From Methanomassiliicoccales archaeon (GTDB taxonomy: Archaea; Thermoplasmatota; Thermoplasmata; Methanomassiliicoccales; UBA472): 64,000 nucleotides of DNA. Under the pieces are notes generated by a model. That model saw only the letters and a program-made list of their open reading frames with translations, made no database searches and was not told the origin of the DNA. The stretch lies in contig CP058896.1 in NCBI GenBank assembly GCA_013415865.1, forward strand, positions 1,159,957-1,223,956, given 5' to 3'. This document shows positions 48,854 through 56,855 of this stretch, piece after piece (position 1 is the stretch's first letter; each line of letters starts with the position of its first letter). A program made the position numbers and the translations under genes.

Positions 48854-49672
48854 TTGAAGAAAAAAGGAATGAAACCTATTATGCTCGTTGCGATCGCCAT
48901 CGTCCTCATTGTGGCGTTGGTGTCCGTCGTTGTTCTAGGAGGGTTCCTGGACAACGATGATGAGAATGCACTCGAGAGGATCCAGAGAAAGGGCAAGATC
49001 GTCGTGGGGACCCAGGTCCCGTATCCGCCGTTCGAGAATCTGAACCTAACCACAAACGAGCTGGAGGGGATCGATATCGAGATCATGTATTACATTGCGG
49101 ACAAACTTGGCGTCCAGATCGAATGGAAGATGATGGACTTCGACCCGTTGTTCGCAGCGGTCCAGACCGGACAGCTCGATTGCGCAATATCCTCGATCAC
49201 AATAACCGAAGAACGTGACGAGGTCAACGACTTCACAATACCCTATTACGTGGCCAACCAAGCGGTTCTGGTCAGGGAGGAGAGCACCATCGCGAGTATC
49301 GAGGACCTATACGGGAAGAAGATCATCACCCAGCTCGGTACCACAGGTCAGTATTGGGTCGATGCCAACCTCGTTGATACGAACAAGATCGATGCGGATG
49401 ACCACACCAAGTTTGCCGATGTACCTGCAGCCGTACTAACGGTCGAGAACAATCAACAGGACGCCTTCGTTGTAGACACCCCAGTAGCTTGGAAGTATGC
49501 CAACGACACCGCCTACAACCTGAAGGTCGGGTTCATCATCTATACCATGGAGCAATATGGGATTCTTATACCTCAAGGTGAGCCTGAGCTGAAGAAGGCC
49601 ATGGACGATGCTATCGCCGAAATGATCGCTGATGGCACGCTCGAAGAGATCATGCTGAGATGGCTGATCTAA
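48854..49672 (+). CDS. Polar amino-acid ABC transporter substrate-binding protein
   Basis: 272 residues, TTG start at 48854 or ATG 48869. A membrane anchor (about 9-28) precedes a spacer and a type 3 solute-binding fold: GTQVPYPPFEN, GIDIEIMYYIADKLG, DFTIPYYVANQAVLV, QLGTTGQYW. The ligand Arg/Asp pattern is that of glutamine/arginine-type proteins; exact amino acid unresolved. Confidence 0.87.
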   Translation: MKKKGMKPIMLVAIAIVLIVALVSVVVLGGFLDNDDENALERIQRKGKIVVGTQVPYPPFENLNLTTNELEGIDIEIMYYIADKLGVQIEWKMMDFDPLFAAVQTGQLDCAISSITITEERDEVNDFTIPYYVANQAVLVREESTIASIEDLYGKKIITQLGTTGQYWVDANLVDTNKIDADDHTKFADVPAAVLTVENNQQDAFVVDTPVAWKYANDTAYNLKVGFIIYTMEQYGILIPQGEPELKKAMDDAIAEMIADGTLEEIMLRWLI

Positions 49673-49732
49673 AAACCCCTTTCACTATAATTTTTTTACA
49701 TATCTTAATAAAGATCGAGCAGAGGTCTCAAT

Positions 49733-50413
49733 ATGGCGGTCGAGATCAGATGGGGAATAATCCCGGAGAACATTGATTCCTTTTTAGATGGCCTAGAGGT
49801 AACGCTCAAGATAGCGGTGATATCCGTCCTTCTGGGCTTCATCGGAGGGATAATAATCGGGATGGGGAGGATATCCCGGAATCCTGTGACATATGGGCTC
49901 TCGACCGTATATGTTGAGGCCTTCAGAGGTACCCCTTTGCTGATACAGATATTTCTTGTCTATCTAGGTCTTCCTCAACTGGGGATCTACATAGATAGTC
50001 CGTTCATCGCCGGACTGATAGCATTGTCATTAAACAGTGCCGCTTATCAAGCCGAGATATTCAGAGGAGGGGTACAATCCATATCAAAAGGTCAGATGGA
50101 GGCTGCACGGTCACTGGGCCTAAGCTATAATCAGGCCATGATGAAGGTCATCATCCCACAGGCCATCCGGAACGCCCTCCCTCCATACACGAACGAGTTC
50201 ATTACCATGATCAAGGACTCATCGCTTGTCATAACAATAGGTGTTATGGAACTTACGATGACCGGAAAACTGATAAGCTCCAGCTCAGGACAGTCGATCC
50301 CCGTTCTGCTGTTCGTCGCATTTCTCTATTTCATTCTGACGTTCAGCACTGCCAGGATAATGAGGTTCGTGGAGAAGCGTTTTGCCATCCCAGGGATGAT
50401 GGGGTGTGAATGA
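49733..50413 (+). CDS. Amino-acid ABC transporter permease (HisM/GlnP type)
   Basis: 226 residues with five spans; the EAA motif ([22 protein letters not shown]) contacts the ATPase. GAGGT precedes ATG 49733. It overlaps the ATPase gene as ATGA. A single permease suggests a homodimer. Confidence 0.88.
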
Positions 50414-51345
50414 ACATGAACGGCCCTATTATCGAGACCGTAGGATTGAGAAAATCGTTCGAGGGCAATGAGGTGCTCAAGGGGATTTCCATGAAGATCA
50501 TGCCTAACGAGGTCGTGGCGATCATTGGTCCTAGCGGGAGTGGCAAGAGCACCCTCCTCCGTTGCTTGAACCTCCTGAACGAACCTACTGCCGGTAAGAT
50601 TTTTTTCGAAGGTTATGACATCACAGACAAGAACGTAGACATCAACATCGTACGCTCACAGATGACCATGGTCTTCCAGAATTTCAACCTCTTCATGCAT
50701 CTGACGGCCAGAAAGAATGTATCGCTGGCGTTGACCAAGGTCAAAAAAATGGATAAAGAAGAGGCTGACAGATTGGCGATGGAGGCCTTACGACAGGTAG
50801 GACTTGCAGACAAGGCAGATTCGTATCCAGGCCAGCTCTCAGGTGGTCAACAGCAGCGTGTGGCGATCGCAAGATGCATAGCGATGCAACCAAAGGTCAT
50901 ATTGTTCGATGAGCCGACCTCGGCCCTTGACCCGGAGCTCATCGGAGAAGTGCTGGATGTGATCAAGAAGCTGGCATTGACCACGGGCATGACGATGGTC
51001 GTTGTGACCCATGAGATGGGCTTTGCAAGGGAGATAGCCGATAGGGTCGTCTTCATGGACAATGGCATTATTGCCGAGGAGGGACCACCAGAGGAGATAT
51101 TTGTCAATCCAAAGAACGAAAGGACCAAAGTATTCCTCAGGCGCGTTCTAAAGGAGATAGACGAGCTAGACCCATTGAAGCCAAAATACGACGCCCCGGT
51201 CATCACGAACGACAATGGAGGCGTCGAGCAGACATCGGACAATGTCCCGGCCCAAAGCGAAGATGAAAGGAAACGGTGGTTCAATTTCGGTAAGGGCCTG
51301 AAAGGGCAGAGGACCAAGGACAAGGACCGAGGTTGGTGGCGTTGA
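50410..51345 (+). CDS. Amino-acid ABC transporter ATPase with C-terminal extension
   Basis: 311 residues. Core: Walker [15 protein letters not shown]-loop [11 protein letters not shown], signature [14 protein letters not shown], Walker [14 protein letters not shown]-switch VVTHEMGFA. This is the GlnQ/HisP class. About 55 extra C-terminal residues (from LDPLKPKY), rich in Lys, Asn and Trp, are not part of that family and could be regulatory. Confidence 0.88.
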
Positions 51346-51418: not shown

Positions 51419-51427
51419 ATTAAATAG
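51419..51427 (+). promoter_or_regulatory. TATA box of the branched-chain leader transcript
   Basis: ATTAAATAG. Initiation about 26 bases downstream (near 51446) puts ATG 51453 within roughly seven bases of the 5' end, so ribosomes could load on the leader ORF as soon as RNA appears. Confidence 0.5.
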
Positions 51428-51452
51428 CCACGTCATAATACAATCGGCCACA

Positions 51453-51515
51453 ATGAGCTTCGCTGCCCTTAGGTCCATAATTATTGTCATGGTCAGCGGA
51501 AAGCTTATTGTCTGA
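51453..51515 (+). CDS. Candidate Ile/Val/Leu-rich leader peptide (20 aa)
   Basis: ATG 51453 to TGA 51513-51515 encodes a peptide starting MSFAALR followed by SIIIVMV and ending KLIV. Nine of its 20 residues are Ile, Val or Leu, in three clusters near the end. The stop codon touches the first base of a GC hairpin plus T tract, and the next genes encode an ACT regulatory protein and IlvE. This order (short regulatory-codon ORF, terminator, biosynthetic genes) is that of bacterial ilv leader peptides. Chance cannot be excluded from a single sequence. Confidence 0.45.
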   Translation: MSFAALRSIIIVMVSGKLIV

Positions 51516-51549
51516 AGGAGGAGGTGGCTCGGAGGGCCGTCTCCTTTTT
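51515..51549 (+). terminator. Hairpin and T5 tract, candidate attenuator
   Basis: Outer stem AAGGAG (51515-51520) with CTCCTT (51541-51546); inner stem GGCTC-GGA-GGGCC (51526-51538) with a three-base loop and one G-U pair; T tract 51545-51549. It follows the leader ORF without a gap. CGGCC at 51445-51449 could pair with GGCCG at 51535-51539, giving a possible alternative fold. Confidence 0.55.
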
Positions 51550-51571
51550 GTTCGAGAAAATGAGGTAGTGG

Positions 51572-51817
51572 ATGCTAATGTTGGTCGAATGGTGCATGTC
51601 GATGTGCCTAGTATCGGGCAAGGGGGGAAGAAGACCGAAGAGGGTCATGCAGGACAATGAAGGCTCTTCTCAGTTCCAGTTCGCCTGGAATTCGACCCCC
51701 AAGTATCCTAAACATTTGGACAATGGAAGGGATGATGAAGGCTATTATGCCCCGATCAAGAAGTTGCACACGATGAAGAATTATGAGGAGACCAGCAAAG
51801 GCAGGAAGAAAAAATAG
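51572..51817 (+). CDS. Hypothetical 81-aa protein between the leader and the ACT gene
   Basis: ATG 51572 has GAGGTAG at good Shine-Dalgarno distance. The first 20 residues are hydrophobic with Met and Cys; the rest is polar and basic, ending TSKGRKKK. An internal ATG 51647 would give 56 residues. It lies 21 bp before the ACT gene. No family recognised; may be a lineage-specific small protein. Confidence 0.4.
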   Translation: MLMLVEWCMSMCLVSGKGGRRPKRVMQDNEGSSQFQFAWNSTPKYPKHLDNGRDDEGYYAPIKKLHTMKNYEETSKGRKKK

Positions 51818-51838
51818 GCGATCGTGGAGGTGTAAATC

Positions 51839-52204
51839 ATGGAAGTCGTGTCGATGGTCGTAAACGACGAGTTCGGCGTAATGCAGAGGATCGTAGGGGA
51901 GTTCACCAGAAGGAAGATCAACATCGAGACGATCGTCGTTGGTAAATGCGAGATCCCAGGAAAGGCGAGGGTCGTGCTGAGCGTCAAGGACAGGGCCCAG
52001 GCAGAGTCCGTGGTGAGCGCCCTCAAGCAGAGGGTCCATGATATCATTTCGATAGAGATCGTTGATGCCACAAGACATGAGGCCTATGCGTTGACGAGCA
52101 ACTCGGGCGGTAAGGCAAGACTGATAGGGTCCACGCAGGAAGTGGACTCGATGATCGAGGCGTCCAGGCCAGACAAGTTCGTCAAGGCGATAAACGCCAT
52201 CTGA
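51839..52204 (+). CDS. ACT-domain protein, IlvH-like (121 aa)
   Basis: VVSMVVNDEFGVMQRIVGEF followed by RRKINIETIVVGK is the ACT start of acetolactate synthase small subunits, but those are usually near 160 residues. Here the second domain is reduced. GGAGGTG supports ATG 51839. It may regulate a catalytic subunit coded elsewhere. Nine bases separate it from ilvE. Confidence 0.65.
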   Translation: MEVVSMVVNDEFGVMQRIVGEFTRRKINIETIVVGKCEIPGKARVVLSVKDRAQAESVVSALKQRVHDIISIEIVDATRHEAYALTSNSGGKARLIGSTQEVDSMIEASRPDKFVKAINAI

Positions 52205-52213
52205 GGTGTTCGC

Positions 52214-53137
52214 ATGGCAAACAGCTCGAAGATCTGGATGGACGGCAGGTTGGTAGATTTTGATAAGGCCCAGGTGCATGTTCTGGCACATGGGCTCCAC
52301 TACGGAAGCGGCGTCTTTGAGGGCATAAGGATATATCAGACCGAGAAAGGAAGGGCCATCTTCCGTCTAAGGGACCACATGGTACGGTTCCTCAACTCGG
52401 CCAAGGTGATCTCGTTGAACATACCTTACACCCTGAATGAGCTTTGCCAGGCATGTAGGGAGGTCATGAGGAGCGCCCCCCCGGAAGGTGATTATTTGAG
52501 GCCTTTGGCATTCTATGGGATGAACCCGGCTGGAAACATCGGTCTGAATCCTATGAAGATGCCTACCAACGTCATCATCGCCTGCACGCATATGGGAGCA
52601 TACGTCGGAGCAGAGCAGTTAGAGCATGGGGCCAAGTTGATAACGTCAAGCTGGGAAAAACCCTCCAACAGGGCGGCGATGTTGAACGCCAAGATCACCG
52701 GCAACTATATCAACTCGGTCGTGGCGAGGATCGAGGCCATAAAACGCGGGGCGGACGAGGCGTTGATGCTGAACGCCGATGGGACGGTCGCCGAAGGGAC
52801 CGGGGAGAACATCTTCATGGTCAAGAACGGCCAACTTTACACCCCGCCGCTCGCATCGGGCATCCTGGAAGGCATAACCAGGGACAGCATAATGACGATC
52901 GCAAGGGACCTTGGATACCAAGTGGAGGAGAAGGAGATCACAAGGTCGGAGCTCTATCTTGCGGACGAGGCCTTCATGACCGGGACCGCGGCCGAGGTGA
53001 CCCCTATAGGCAGCATTGATGATGTCCAGATAGGCGAGGGAAAAGCTGGGAAGGTCACAAAGCATATCCAATCGACCTTCGCTCAGGCCGTCAAGGGAAA
53101 GGTCCCCAAGTATACATCCTGGCTCGATATGGCCTGA
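52214..53137 (+). CDS. ilvE: Branched-chain amino-acid aminotransferase
   Basis: 307 residues, fold-type IV PLP enzyme. ALHYGSGVFEGIR-like start, active-site Lys in NAKITGNYINS, and phosphate-binding segments GTGENIF and TAAEVTPIG. Transfers the amino group between glutamate and 2-ketoisovalerate and related acids, the last step of Val, Leu and Ile synthesis. Follows the ACT protein. Confidence 0.92.
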   Translation: MANSSKIWMDGRLVDFDKAQVHVLAHGLHYGSGVFEGIRIYQTEKGRAIFRLRDHMVRFLNSAKVISLNIPYTLNELCQACREVMRSAPPEGDYLRPLAFYGMNPAGNIGLNPMKMPTNVIIACTHMGAYVGAEQLEHGAKLITSSWEKPSNRAAMLNAKITGNYINSVVARIEAIKRGADEALMLNADGTVAEGTGENIFMVKNGQLYTPPLASGILEGITRDSIMTIARDLGYQVEEKEITRSELYLADEAFMTGTAAEVTPIGSIDDVQIGEGKAGKVTKHIQSTFAQAVKGKVPKYTSWLDMA

Positions 53138-53815: not shown

Positions 53816-54718
53816 GTGTACGAGGTACGTTTCCATGGGAGGGGCGGGCAGGGGGCCGTGATGGCCGCGCAGACCCTGGCCGAGGCAGCTATATTATTGG
53901 GCCATCATGCACAGGCCTTCCCTTATTTCGGGGCTGAACGGAGAGGAGCCCCGGTCAGGGCATTTGCCCGCATCGATGATAAGAGGATATCGATCAAATC
54001 ACAGATCTACGAGCCCGATATGGTCGTGATCCTTGACGAGTCTCTTCTGGAGATAGACCCGGTCGTGGACGGTCTCACAGAGGAAGGTATGGCGGTCGTG
54101 AACACCACCAAGTCCCCAGATGAGCTAGACCTTGGTATATCTGTCAGATGCGCGACGGTCGATGCAAGCTCGATAGCAATGGAGGCCATCAAGGCCCCGG
54201 CGGTCAACACCGCGATGTTAGGGGCCGTGGCAAGGATGTCGGACCTGGTCACATTGGAGACGGTCAAGAGGGCGATCGAGGACAGGTTCGGTGAGAAGCT
54301 AGGTCCGAGGGCGGCAGAGGCCAACATATTGGCGGCAGAGCTGGCATTCGAAAAGACAAGGACGGGCATCTGCAAAGCTGATAGAACGATCTTTCAAAAG
54401 AAGGTCTGGCTCCCGACATGGGAGGAGCTGCCGACCGGAACAACGGTCTATCCTGAGCATATAGATGGCGTGGCCGTGGGCCCAGGCGGTTCGATGCAGA
54501 ACCTGACCGGTACATGGAGGAACGCGACGCCAAGGTATCTGAAGGACAAATGTATCAGATGCCTTAGATGCTGGTTCTGCTGTCCTGAGGGGTGCATAAA
54601 AAGGTCAGAGGACGACCATGTGAGCTGGGATTATAGGTATTGCAAAGGGTGCGGCATCTGTTCCAACGTCTGCCCTGTCAACGCGATCGAGATGACAAGG
54701 GGGGTGACAGAGTGGTGA
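53816..54718 (+). CDS. 2-oxoacid:ferredoxin oxidoreductase, fused gamma and delta subunits
   Basis: 300 residues. About 1-180 form the gamma subunit (VRFHGRGGQGAVMAAQTLAE, FPYFGAERRGAPV). From about 190 comes the delta (ferredoxin) part with two 4Fe-4S motifs, CIRCLRCWFCCPEGC and CKGCGICSNVC. The starting GTG is at 53816. It overlaps the alpha subunit as TGATG. With IlvE two genes upstream, a 2-ketoisovalerate enzyme (Vor) is plausible, though pyruvate is possible. Confidence 0.87.
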   Translation: MYEVRFHGRGGQGAVMAAQTLAEAAILLGHHAQAFPYFGAERRGAPVRAFARIDDKRISIKSQIYEPDMVVILDESLLEIDPVVDGLTEEGMAVVNTTKSPDELDLGISVRCATVDASSIAMEAIKAPAVNTAMLGAVARMSDLVTLETVKRAIEDRFGEKLGPRAAEANILAAELAFEKTRTGICKADRTIFQKKVWLPTWEELPTGTTVYPEHIDGVAVGPGGSMQNLTGTWRNATPRYLKDKCIRCLRCWFCCPEGCIKRSEDDHVSWDYRYCKGCGICSNVCPVNAIEMTRGVTEW

Positions 54719-55887
54719 TGAAAGTGCTCAGCGCAGACCATGCGGTCGCCTGGGCCGTCAGAAGGGCGAAAGCTGAGGTGATACCAGCTTTCCCGATCAC
54801 CCCGCAGACCTTGATAATGGAGCTCTTGGCGGAGTTCATCGCTGATGGGGAGATGGATGCCGACCTTATAACCGCGGAGAGCGAGCACAGCGTCATGAGC
54901 ATCGCGGTAGGGGCCTCGGCGGGAGGAGTAAGGACGTTCACGGCCACGGCATCCCAGGGACTGGCATTGATGCATGAGATGCTCTATGCCGCGCCGCAGA
55001 ACAGGTTGCCCGTGGTGATGGTCAATGTCAACAGGAGCCTTGGCGCGGCGGCCGGGATATGGGTCGAGCACAACGACTCGATGCCCGAACGAGAGTCAGG
55101 GTGGTTGCAGGTCTATGTGGAGGATGGGCAGGAGGCCCTAGATATGGTGCTCCAGGCCTACCGCATCGCTGAGGACGAGAGGGTCCTCCTGCCAATAATG
55201 GTCTGTCTTGACGGGTTCATCCTCTCGCACACGGTGGAGAGGGTGGAGGTCCCAGAGCAGGAAGATGTCGACGCATTCCTTCCGAGGTTCAAGCCCGCCT
55301 TCGCGTTGGACCCTGAGGACCCTTCGACGATAAACGCGATAGTCCCGCCCGAATATGCTATGGAAATGCGGTATCAGCTGGACCGCACGGTCGAGAGGTC
55401 CAAGATGGTCATAAAGGAAGTGGATGAGGAGTTCAAGGAGAGGTTCGGTCGAGGTCACGGAGGTCTGATCGACACCTACAAGATGGATGACGCCGACCAC
55501 GCCCTGATCTGTCTGGGCACTGCCACCAGCACGGCACGCGCGATCGTGGACGAGCTCAGGTCACAGGGCAGGAAGGCCGGTCTGATCAAGCTGCGCTTCA
55601 TGAGGCCATTCCCGCATGAAGAGCTTAGGGAGGTGTGCTCGGGATTGAGGGCGGTAGGGGTGTTCGACCGGTCCATCGGCTTCAACAGGTATGGTCCAGT
55701 GTTCACCGAGGTCTCGAGCTCGCTCAGCGGCCAGGGCCTGAAGGTCACTGACCACATAGGGGGCCTTGGAGGGAGGGACATCACGCTCCGGGACATGAGG
55801 GATATCTATGCGATCATCGGATCTGACGCCGAGGGAAAGGAGGTCAAGCGAGTCAACTGGCATGGGCTGAGGGGGGTGCAGACTTGA
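54718..55887 (+). CDS. 2-oxoacid:ferredoxin oxidoreductase, alpha subunit
   Basis: 389 residues beginning MKVLSADHAVAWAVRRAKAE. FPITPQTLIMELLAEF and TAESEHSVMS are alpha-subunit motifs; the C-terminal swivel part has GLGGRDIT. It overlaps the next gene by four bases. Substrate not fixed by sequence; the alpha subunit would select among pyruvate and branched-chain oxoacids. Confidence 0.88.
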   Translation: MKVLSADHAVAWAVRRAKAEVIPAFPITPQTLIMELLAEFIADGEMDADLITAESEHSVMSIAVGASAGGVRTFTATASQGLALMHEMLYAAPQNRLPVVMVNVNRSLGAAAGIWVEHNDSMPERESGWLQVYVEDGQEALDMVLQAYRIAEDERVLLPIMVCLDGFILSHTVERVEVPEQEDVDAFLPRFKPAFALDPEDPSTINAIVPPEYAMEMRYQLDRTVERSKMVIKEVDEEFKERFGRGHGGLIDTYKMDDADHALICLGTATSTARAIVDELRSQGRKAGLIKLRFMRPFPHEELREVCSGLRAVGVFDRSIGFNRYGPVFTEVSSSLSGQGLKVTDHIGGLGGRDITLRDMRDIYAIIGSDAEGKEVKRVNWHGLRGVQT

Positions 55888-56855
55888 GCGAGGATGATAT
55901 ATCGACCATCAAGCAAATGCCCAGGAACGACTACTTCCTGAGCGGGCATGGGGCGTGTCCCGGATGCGGCGTGGCCATCGCCGTGAAGAACATCATGAGG
56001 GTCCTCGGGAGCGAAACTACCGTTTACGTACCTGCGTCCTGTCTCATCGTCTTCAGCGCCCTCTATCCCACCTCTGCTTTCAAGGTCCCGTTCTTCTTCA
56101 CGGCGTTCGAGAACACTGGAGCGGTCATCACGGGCATCAAGGCCGCGCATAGAAGGAGAGGGGTCCAAGGGAACGTGGTAGGGTTTGCCGGTGATGGAGG
56201 TACCTTTGACATAGGGCTCCAGGCCCTCTCAGGGGCGGCGGACAGGGGAGAGGACGTCCTATATGTCTGTGTTGACAATGAGGCCTATATGAACACCGGC
56301 ATCCAAAGGTCCGGGGCCACGCCTTTCGGGGCTTGGACCACCACATCCCCCATTGGAAAAAGGATACAGGGGAACAGACGGATGAAGAAGGACATAATGG
56401 ATGTGGTGATAGCCCACAACCCATCATATGCTGCCACCTTGTCGATCGCACACTTCAATGACTTCATAAAGAAGGTGGACAAGGCAAAGAAGAAGAAAGG
56501 TTTCAGATTTCTTCACGTGCTCACGCCCTGCGTGCCCGGTTGGAAGATCGAATCGTCAAGGACAGTGGAGATAGCGAGATTGGCAGTAGAGACCGGAATG
56601 TGGACGCTCTATGAATACGAGGATGGGGAGGCAAGGTCGACCTATAGGCCGCAGGAGATGAGGCCCGTGACAGAATATCTGCAGCTTCAGGGCAGGTTCC
56701 GACATATGAACAACGAGGACCTAAACAACCTTCAAAGATATCTGTGCAACAAATGGTACTATCATTACGGGCACGACATCGAGCAGCCGGTCTGCAGGAT
56801 CTACAAAGGTGAGAAGGAGCTTCATTTCGATGGGGACCCCCTTCACGGGGTATGA
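55884..56855 (+). CDS. 2-oxoacid:ferredoxin oxidoreductase, beta subunit
   Basis: 323 residues, TTG start. GHGACPGCGVAIAVKN and VGFAGDGGTFDIGLQ (TPP and Mg site) are diagnostic of the beta subunit. CPGC and later Cys bind the proximal Fe-S cluster. Together gamma-delta, alpha and beta make a complete enzyme that oxidises a 2-oxoacid to acyl-CoA with ferredoxin reduction, or reverses this for biosynthesis. Confidence 0.9.
   Translation: MSEDDISTIKQMPRNDYFLSGHGACPGCGVAIAVKNIMRVLGSETTVYVPASCLIVFSALYPTSAFKVPFFFTAFENTGAVITGIKAAHRRRGVQGNVVGFAGDGGTFDIGLQALSGAADRGEDVLYVCVDNEAYMNTGIQRSGATPFGAWTTTSPIGKRIQGNRRMKKDIMDVVIAHNPSYAATLSIAHFNDFIKKVDKAKKKKGFRFLHVLTPCVPGWKIESSRTVEIARLAVETGMWTLYEYEDGEARSTYRPQEMRPVTEYLQLQGRFRHMNNEDLNNLQRYLCNKWYYHYGHDIEQPVCRIYKGEKELHFDGDPLHGV

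Follow-up and report, generated by a model that had tools for sequence, protein, structure and literature searches.

A putative Ile/Val/Leu leader-peptide attenuator in front of branched-chain amino acid genes in Methanomassiliicoccales

Could an archaeal ribosome, through its progress along a short leader, control the branched-chain amino acid genes that follow? The question is raised by a locus in a 64,000-nt stretch of DNA from a Methanomassiliicoccales archaeon (the window), where an earlier note had described, in this order, a TATA box, a near-leaderless ATG, a 20-codon ORF rich in Ile, Val and Leu (I/V/L) codons, a hairpin at its stop codon, a T5 run, an ACT gene and ilvE. All of these elements were found in place, and the locus reads as follows.

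51420 to 51426, + strand: TATA-like box TTAAATA, the putative leader promoter; from the sequence
51453 to 51515, + strand: leader ORF of 20 codons, MSFAALRSIIIVMVSGKLIV, then TGA (51513-51515); counterparts in 62 curated loci
51449 to 51469, + strand: 5' arm of helix H1, in the leader start region; from the fold and from co-variation of the ORF halves (R1:R2)
51490 to 51512, + strand: 3' arm of helix H1, in the final leader codons; from the fold and R1:R2 co-variation
51515 to 51549, + strand: hairpin H2 at the stop codon, arms 51515-51530 and 51534-51549; from the fold
51545 to 51549, + strand: T5 run, 3' end of H2; from the sequence, a run of at least five being not conserved (2 of 28 clades)
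51572 to 51817, + strand: small gene of 81 aa, conserved, first cistron after the leader; no Pfam match
51839 to 52204, + strand: ACT-domain gene of the acetolactate synthase small-subunit type; PF22629, E 1.5e-14
52214 to 53137, + strand: ilvE, class IV aminotransferase of the branched-chain type; PF01063, E 1e-51

The gap between the TATA-like box and the ATG at 51453 is 26 nt, and Ile, Val or Leu fill eight of the last 12 codons of the ORF. H2 has a loop of 3 nt and a predicted energy of -20.4 kcal/mol, its outer pairs being formed by the T5 run, and the sequence CGGCC is present at 51445-51449. Taken as a whole, the fold of this region stands out only moderately (z -2.0), so structure alone is insufficient to settle the matter. 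When both strands of the window were scanned for ORFs with at least seven I/V/L within the last 12 codons and a stop-abutting hairpin of -12 kcal/mol or lower, two passed: the MSFAALRSIIIVMVSGKLIV ORF and one other, which is a fragment of a 104-codon frame. Rfam covariance models gave no match to the window region at E<=1, and at a related locus, L051, they gave a sub-threshold fluoride match alone, on the other strand.

The proposed order of leader, ACT gene and ilvE holds insofar as both genes lie downstream, but the 323 nt between the leader stop and the ACT gene are no mere spacer, since they hold the conserved small gene. Homologues of its product, 73-86 aa long, are encoded in genera g1, g2, g4 and g7, where the gene is likewise the first cistron behind the leader; the protein has a hydrophobic start and an RRPK-like stretch, followed by W(L/N)STPKYPxGxDNGRDDEGYYxPIKKxHxVRNY. 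Directly upstream of the leader are polar amino-acid ABC transporter genes (binding protein, permease and ATPase; 48854-51345), and in f3 the ilvB leader is preceded by ORFs that are alike in size and order, judged on those two features. Past an ilvE-rubrerythrin stretch, the window carries at 53816-56855 ORFs that, from their translations, resemble 2-oxoacid:ferredoxin oxidoreductase subunits.

Comparison with relatives, which the earlier note had proposed as a check, finds the I/V/L-rich short ORF and its stop hairpin kept in many of them. A protein search places the ACT protein in 107 of 147 genomes of the order. Within f1, the family of the window, a leader ORF lies upstream of ACT-ilvE in all 20 loci with sufficient sequence; these leaders (for example MCSAAATVVILVLSSGQLVIA, MRSTAACKIIVLLVSERYVVI, MYALGYSTDIVLVQRVLGI, MLSVAQTPVLIVVVEQLVLGI, MSSPAAYQDASGVLSLQVLVI and MSSLAVSPGGNSVLVSLRILVI, each followed by a stop) drift in length and sequence and retain the I/V/L tail and the stop hairpin. 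The ACT gene sits directly 3' of ilvB in f2, f3, f4 and part of f6, and a leader such as MNAALLLVRNSLLVSVQVLVV or MNAPARNVESILMLLSVQVLLV, again followed by a stop, stands in front of ilvB-ACT in f2, f3 and part of f6, the f4 locus being left out of this reading for too short an upstream coverage. A further set precedes ilvB in f1, f2, f3 and f5 (f5, MQGITTPTSIVSSLLGVVVVLIR; f3, MTTRFDISVISRISAVVIIIS; both then a stop), and in the window genome itself a second ilv leader, GTG-SNNSTNAIVVLRLGVVVVI and a stop, heads ilvB-ilvB-ilvC. At G000:C1:1314015-1317446 (L070, L071) the adjacent ilvB pair is followed by ilvC with one leader for all, and a second ilvB copy has its own leader in L140 (G128) and L141 (G001).

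The curated set of 62 loci, drawn from f1, f2, f3, f5 and part of f6, shows an almost leaderless ORF, roughly 19-26 codons long, before ACT-ilvE, ilvB(-ilvB-ilvC) or ilvB-ACT. Every one of the 62 has a hairpin that begins within 0-6 nt of its stop (mean -16.3 kcal/mol), and the next start follows the stop at 42-65 nt where it belongs to ilvB and at 28-56 nt where it belongs to the small gene (set A). Nearly all tabulated leaders have a TTAAATA-type box about 25-40 nt 5' of their start; this is the single TATA box 5' of the leader, and the 42-65 nt before ilvB leave little space for a further promoter. Beyond the order, inspection by eye and a simple scan found similar ilvB leaders elsewhere in the class, in f28, f27, f21 and two f26 genera, and none in f17, f23, f25 and three other f26 genera. 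In gut genera of f6 (g17, g18, g21-25, g27, g28 and g30; L108-L136) the examined ilvB upstream regions have no leader, and a blind scan of 33 such regions returned no candidate. A TATA-like box lies near the ilvB start in these genera; leader control seems to have been lost there, given the missing leader and the position of that box.

Short ORFs are common, 8 kb holding 117 that reach 20 aa, and the earlier note had named chance origin as the main risk. The codon content argues otherwise. Averaged across 28 set-by-clade groups, the final 12 codons contain 7.64 I/V/L when read in frame and 1.0 and 2.46 when read in the other two frames, against a background of 22% I/V/L in neighbouring proteins; four f6 leaders are lower, with 4-6. 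In sets B and C (ilvB) the stop had initially been chosen by I/V/L content, a bias guarded against by the regularity of hairpin and spacing and by a blind scan that fixes ORF length, ilvB distance and hairpin, leaves the amino acids free and counts I/V/L afterwards. That scan found 42 of 42 set B and C leaders, with 4-10 I/V/L each, while 2,520 dinucleotide shuffles gave any candidate 104 times, one with at least seven I/V/L twice and one with at least eight never. A chance ORF beside a hairpin is refuted by these shuffle tests and by conservation across several families, and its probability is negligible.

Which of the helices does comparison between clades bear out? A swap test, in which segments are exchanged between clades and duplex energies compared over the 28 set-by-clade groups, supports, at the level of sequence, both H1, which lies within the ORF, and H2 at its stop codon. 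The first and second ORF halves (R1:R2) pair at -21.4 kcal/mol with their own partner and at -16.7 kcal/mol with a swapped one (z -8.7, p 0.0002), a co-variation that is independent of the method by which the leaders were picked. H1 is a pause-type 1:2 helix inside the leader ORF, as in bacterial transcription attenuators. The arms of H2 (A3:A4) also pair better with their own partner, although the z of -10.6 is inflated because the arms were taken from folds and co-variation is partly built in. Compensatory stem changes, for which the earlier note had suggested looking, are few within single genera, since the sequences are nearly invariant there.

The same test gave no sign of an alternative fold. 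The earlier note had supposed that CGGCC could compete with the inner stem, and pairing of CGGCC with H2 is an idea against which the 28 clades speak: neither the leader start (R1:A3 z -0.3, R1:A4 z +0.1) nor the 2:3-type antiterminator pairing (R2:A3 z +0.9, R2:A4 z -0.4) departs from chance. Any leader or hairpin segment tested against the downstream region stays at chance level over all sets. In ilv leaders, pairing of the start with the sequence behind H2, of the kind seen at leuA, has z -0.5 over all sets and z -1.6 (p 0.06) in set B. A motif AT[TC]GT 20 nt behind H2 occurs in ilv leaders of 13 of the 28 clades, with a null mean of 2.6, and no partner was found for it.

The branched-chain set extends to leuA. 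In the window genome this gene has its own upstream leader, MRHNKMICLLLLLH, mainly of Leu codons, and relatives have MRHTSIISLLLLLH, MNKHILANILLLRH, MSINVLDWNLILRLL and MNDWRPDLLLLLRLVPVSSL, all ending at a stop. At least four Leu in the last 10 codons are found in 15 of 29 leuA leaders, against 10 of 1,740 shuffles; 12 of the 29 reach only two Leu, and those of g7 and f5 are weaker in Leu content. With I/V/L leaders at ilv and Leu leaders at leuA, codon content follows the gene's product. Upstream of trpE and hisG in the window genome no comparable leader was found, so the leader is not a general trait of biosynthetic genes. The leuA leader also folds in its own way: co-variation joins its 5' UTR and start region to sequence 3' of the stop (z -4.7) and links one half of the ORF to the other (z -3.8). 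A motif CAT[TC]G[TC], 22 nt behind the stop, is shared by 22 of the 29 leuA leaders, with a null mean of 1.2, and pairs with the leader start.

Together, these results make it probable that the leader acts as a ribosome-mediated attenuator, one that responds to charged tRNA for Ile, Val and Leu and so regulates the branched-chain operon behind it. Under a shortage of branched-chain amino acids a ribosome would stall on control codons at least four codons before the stop, H1 would be open and H2 would form freely. In plenty, a ribosome at the stop would cover about 10 nt beyond it, by the footprint of bacterial ribosomes, and would block arm 3 of H2 while RNA polymerase proceeds. With a footprint of that size, a stop-positioned ribosome would cover most of arm 3 and one stalled at least four codons earlier would not, so H2 would report stalling; control codons also occur at -1 to -3, and a ribosome held up there would occlude H2 just as a stop-positioned one would. 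Formation of H2 would then be the starvation signal, and as the genes behind it are biosynthetic it would be expected to favour expression, the reverse of what a terminator hairpin does.

This polarity bears on two better-known kinds of attenuation. Were the leader wired like that of a bacterial ilv operon, transcription would end at H2 and its T-run in plenty and an antiterminator would form on stalling. H2 of the window is strong and ends in T5, locus L103 has T5 too, and archaeal transcription does terminate at poly-U stretches (PMC8116511), but a T-run of at least five follows H2 in only 2 of the 28 clades, so that a poly-U terminator does not suit the other 26. No antiterminator co-varies (R1 or R2 against A3 or A4, all |z|<1), and with the stop codon at the base of H2 a stop-positioned ribosome would block the terminator instead of allowing it. 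Such classical intrinsic-terminator attenuation is unlikely. What stood of the likeness to bacterial ilv operons drawn in the earlier note is the I/V/L leader before branched-chain genes; the terminator/antiterminator wiring fell away. Two defining features of that type were tested, of which a 2:3 antiterminator was not found and a U-run terminator is not conserved, and from its sequence the leader is not a textbook terminator/antiterminator attenuator. Could H2 act on translation instead, its arm 4, once freed, hiding the ribosome-binding site of the next gene as in attenuation of the erm or actinobacterial leuA type? Arm 4 often carries an anti-Shine-Dalgarno-like CCUC and the distance to the next start codon is constant, but arm 4 pairs with the ribosome-binding region no better than arms swapped between species do (own -7.15, swapped -8.29 kcal/mol; A4:DN z +1.5), and folding with a ribosome modelled at the stop does not make the Shine-Dalgarno region consistently less accessible. 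Masking of the Shine-Dalgarno by arm 4 was rejected on these two results, which leaves translational attenuation of this type a doubtful reading.

Other readings do without amino acid sensing. A riboswitch-like leader RNA that binds a metabolite or protein, with the ORF incidental, would accord with two co-varying helices and with the recurrence of AT[TC]GT behind H2, but what is conserved is the reading frame, the I/V/L content and the stop position, the pairing sequences vary freely from clade to clade, and no Rfam family matches; this is very improbable. Hardly any weight falls to a functional hydrophobic micropeptide beside a hairpin of ordinary processing or pausing. The I/V/L-rich tails are indeed hydrophobic and the last half of the leader is nearly invariant within some genera; against this, I, V and L interchange and the first half drifts between clades, a separate Leu-rich version precedes leuA, and the ORF ends at a hairpin everywhere.

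If the leader is an attenuator that senses charged tRNA, how would H2 act? The archaeal terminator FttA binds nascent transcripts rich in U, and a proposal holds that where it contacts the transcription complex the ribosome's contacts are excluded (PMC11616081, PMC8116511). Instead of serving as an intrinsic terminator, H2 might act on the next start codon, which lies 28-65 nt past the leader stop, or on the coupling of ribosome and polymerase by way of FttA access; this step is put forward tentatively from geometry, as no ribosome-switched alternative structure was found (2:3, arm 4 with the Shine-Dalgarno and leader with downstream pairings, all without co-variation). A broader model could have some merit, though it is less than even: attenuation would be old and widespread in Thermoplasmata and would use a simpler switch, in which the position of the ribosome at the stop determines whether one hairpin can form, no antiterminator being involved, and through it next-cistron expression or FttA access.

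No report of archaeal leader-peptide attenuation was found in the searchable literature, a scope outside which most subscription journals lie, and to our knowledge none has been shown. A leuA-linked RNA motif has been predicted in Halobacteria; no paper naming it was found in that same literature. The enterobacterial leaders ivbL, ilvL and leuL have codons that match the pathway, mixed I/V/L for ilv and a Leu run for leu, and the archaeal leaders resemble them in this. The enterobacterial ilv and leu leaders are built of segments 1-4 with a 2:3 antiterminator and a U-rich terminator, neither of which was found in the archaeal ones.

The nearest known system is the ilvBNC attenuator of Corynebacterium glutamicum, where the start codon lies 1 nt from the transcription start and a 15-residue I/V/L leader, MTIIRLVVVTARRLP, is encoded; the two have in common a near-leaderless I/V/L leader before acetolactate synthase genes (PMC11857589). 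C. glutamicum ilvBNC forms terminator, antiterminator and anti-antiterminator hairpins (PMC11857589), whereas in the archaeal leader two helices and no antiterminator were found, its T-run is not conserved and its stop codon lies at the base of the second hairpin. Actinobacteria likewise have leader ORFs at both ilvB and leuA, in some of which no antiterminator is evident, and there too the leuA leader lies within a larger RNA fold (PMC1262725). In their LEU element the Leu codons pair with the leuA Shine-Dalgarno (PMC1262725), while at archaeal leuA the 5' UTR and start region pair behind the stop. Among archaea, Haloferax volcanii has uORFs and small genes within long 5' UTRs, which are alike in being short ORFs before genes, and the available portion of that report describes no amino-acid-codon leader or hairpin (PMC4983044). 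Leaders matched to their genes, I/V/L for ilv and Leu for leuA, make archaeal attenuation directly testable and bear on the question of how archaeal ribosomes and RNA polymerase work together. Should it be confirmed, such control would exist in two domains, by descent or by convergence, on transcription machineries that terminate differently.
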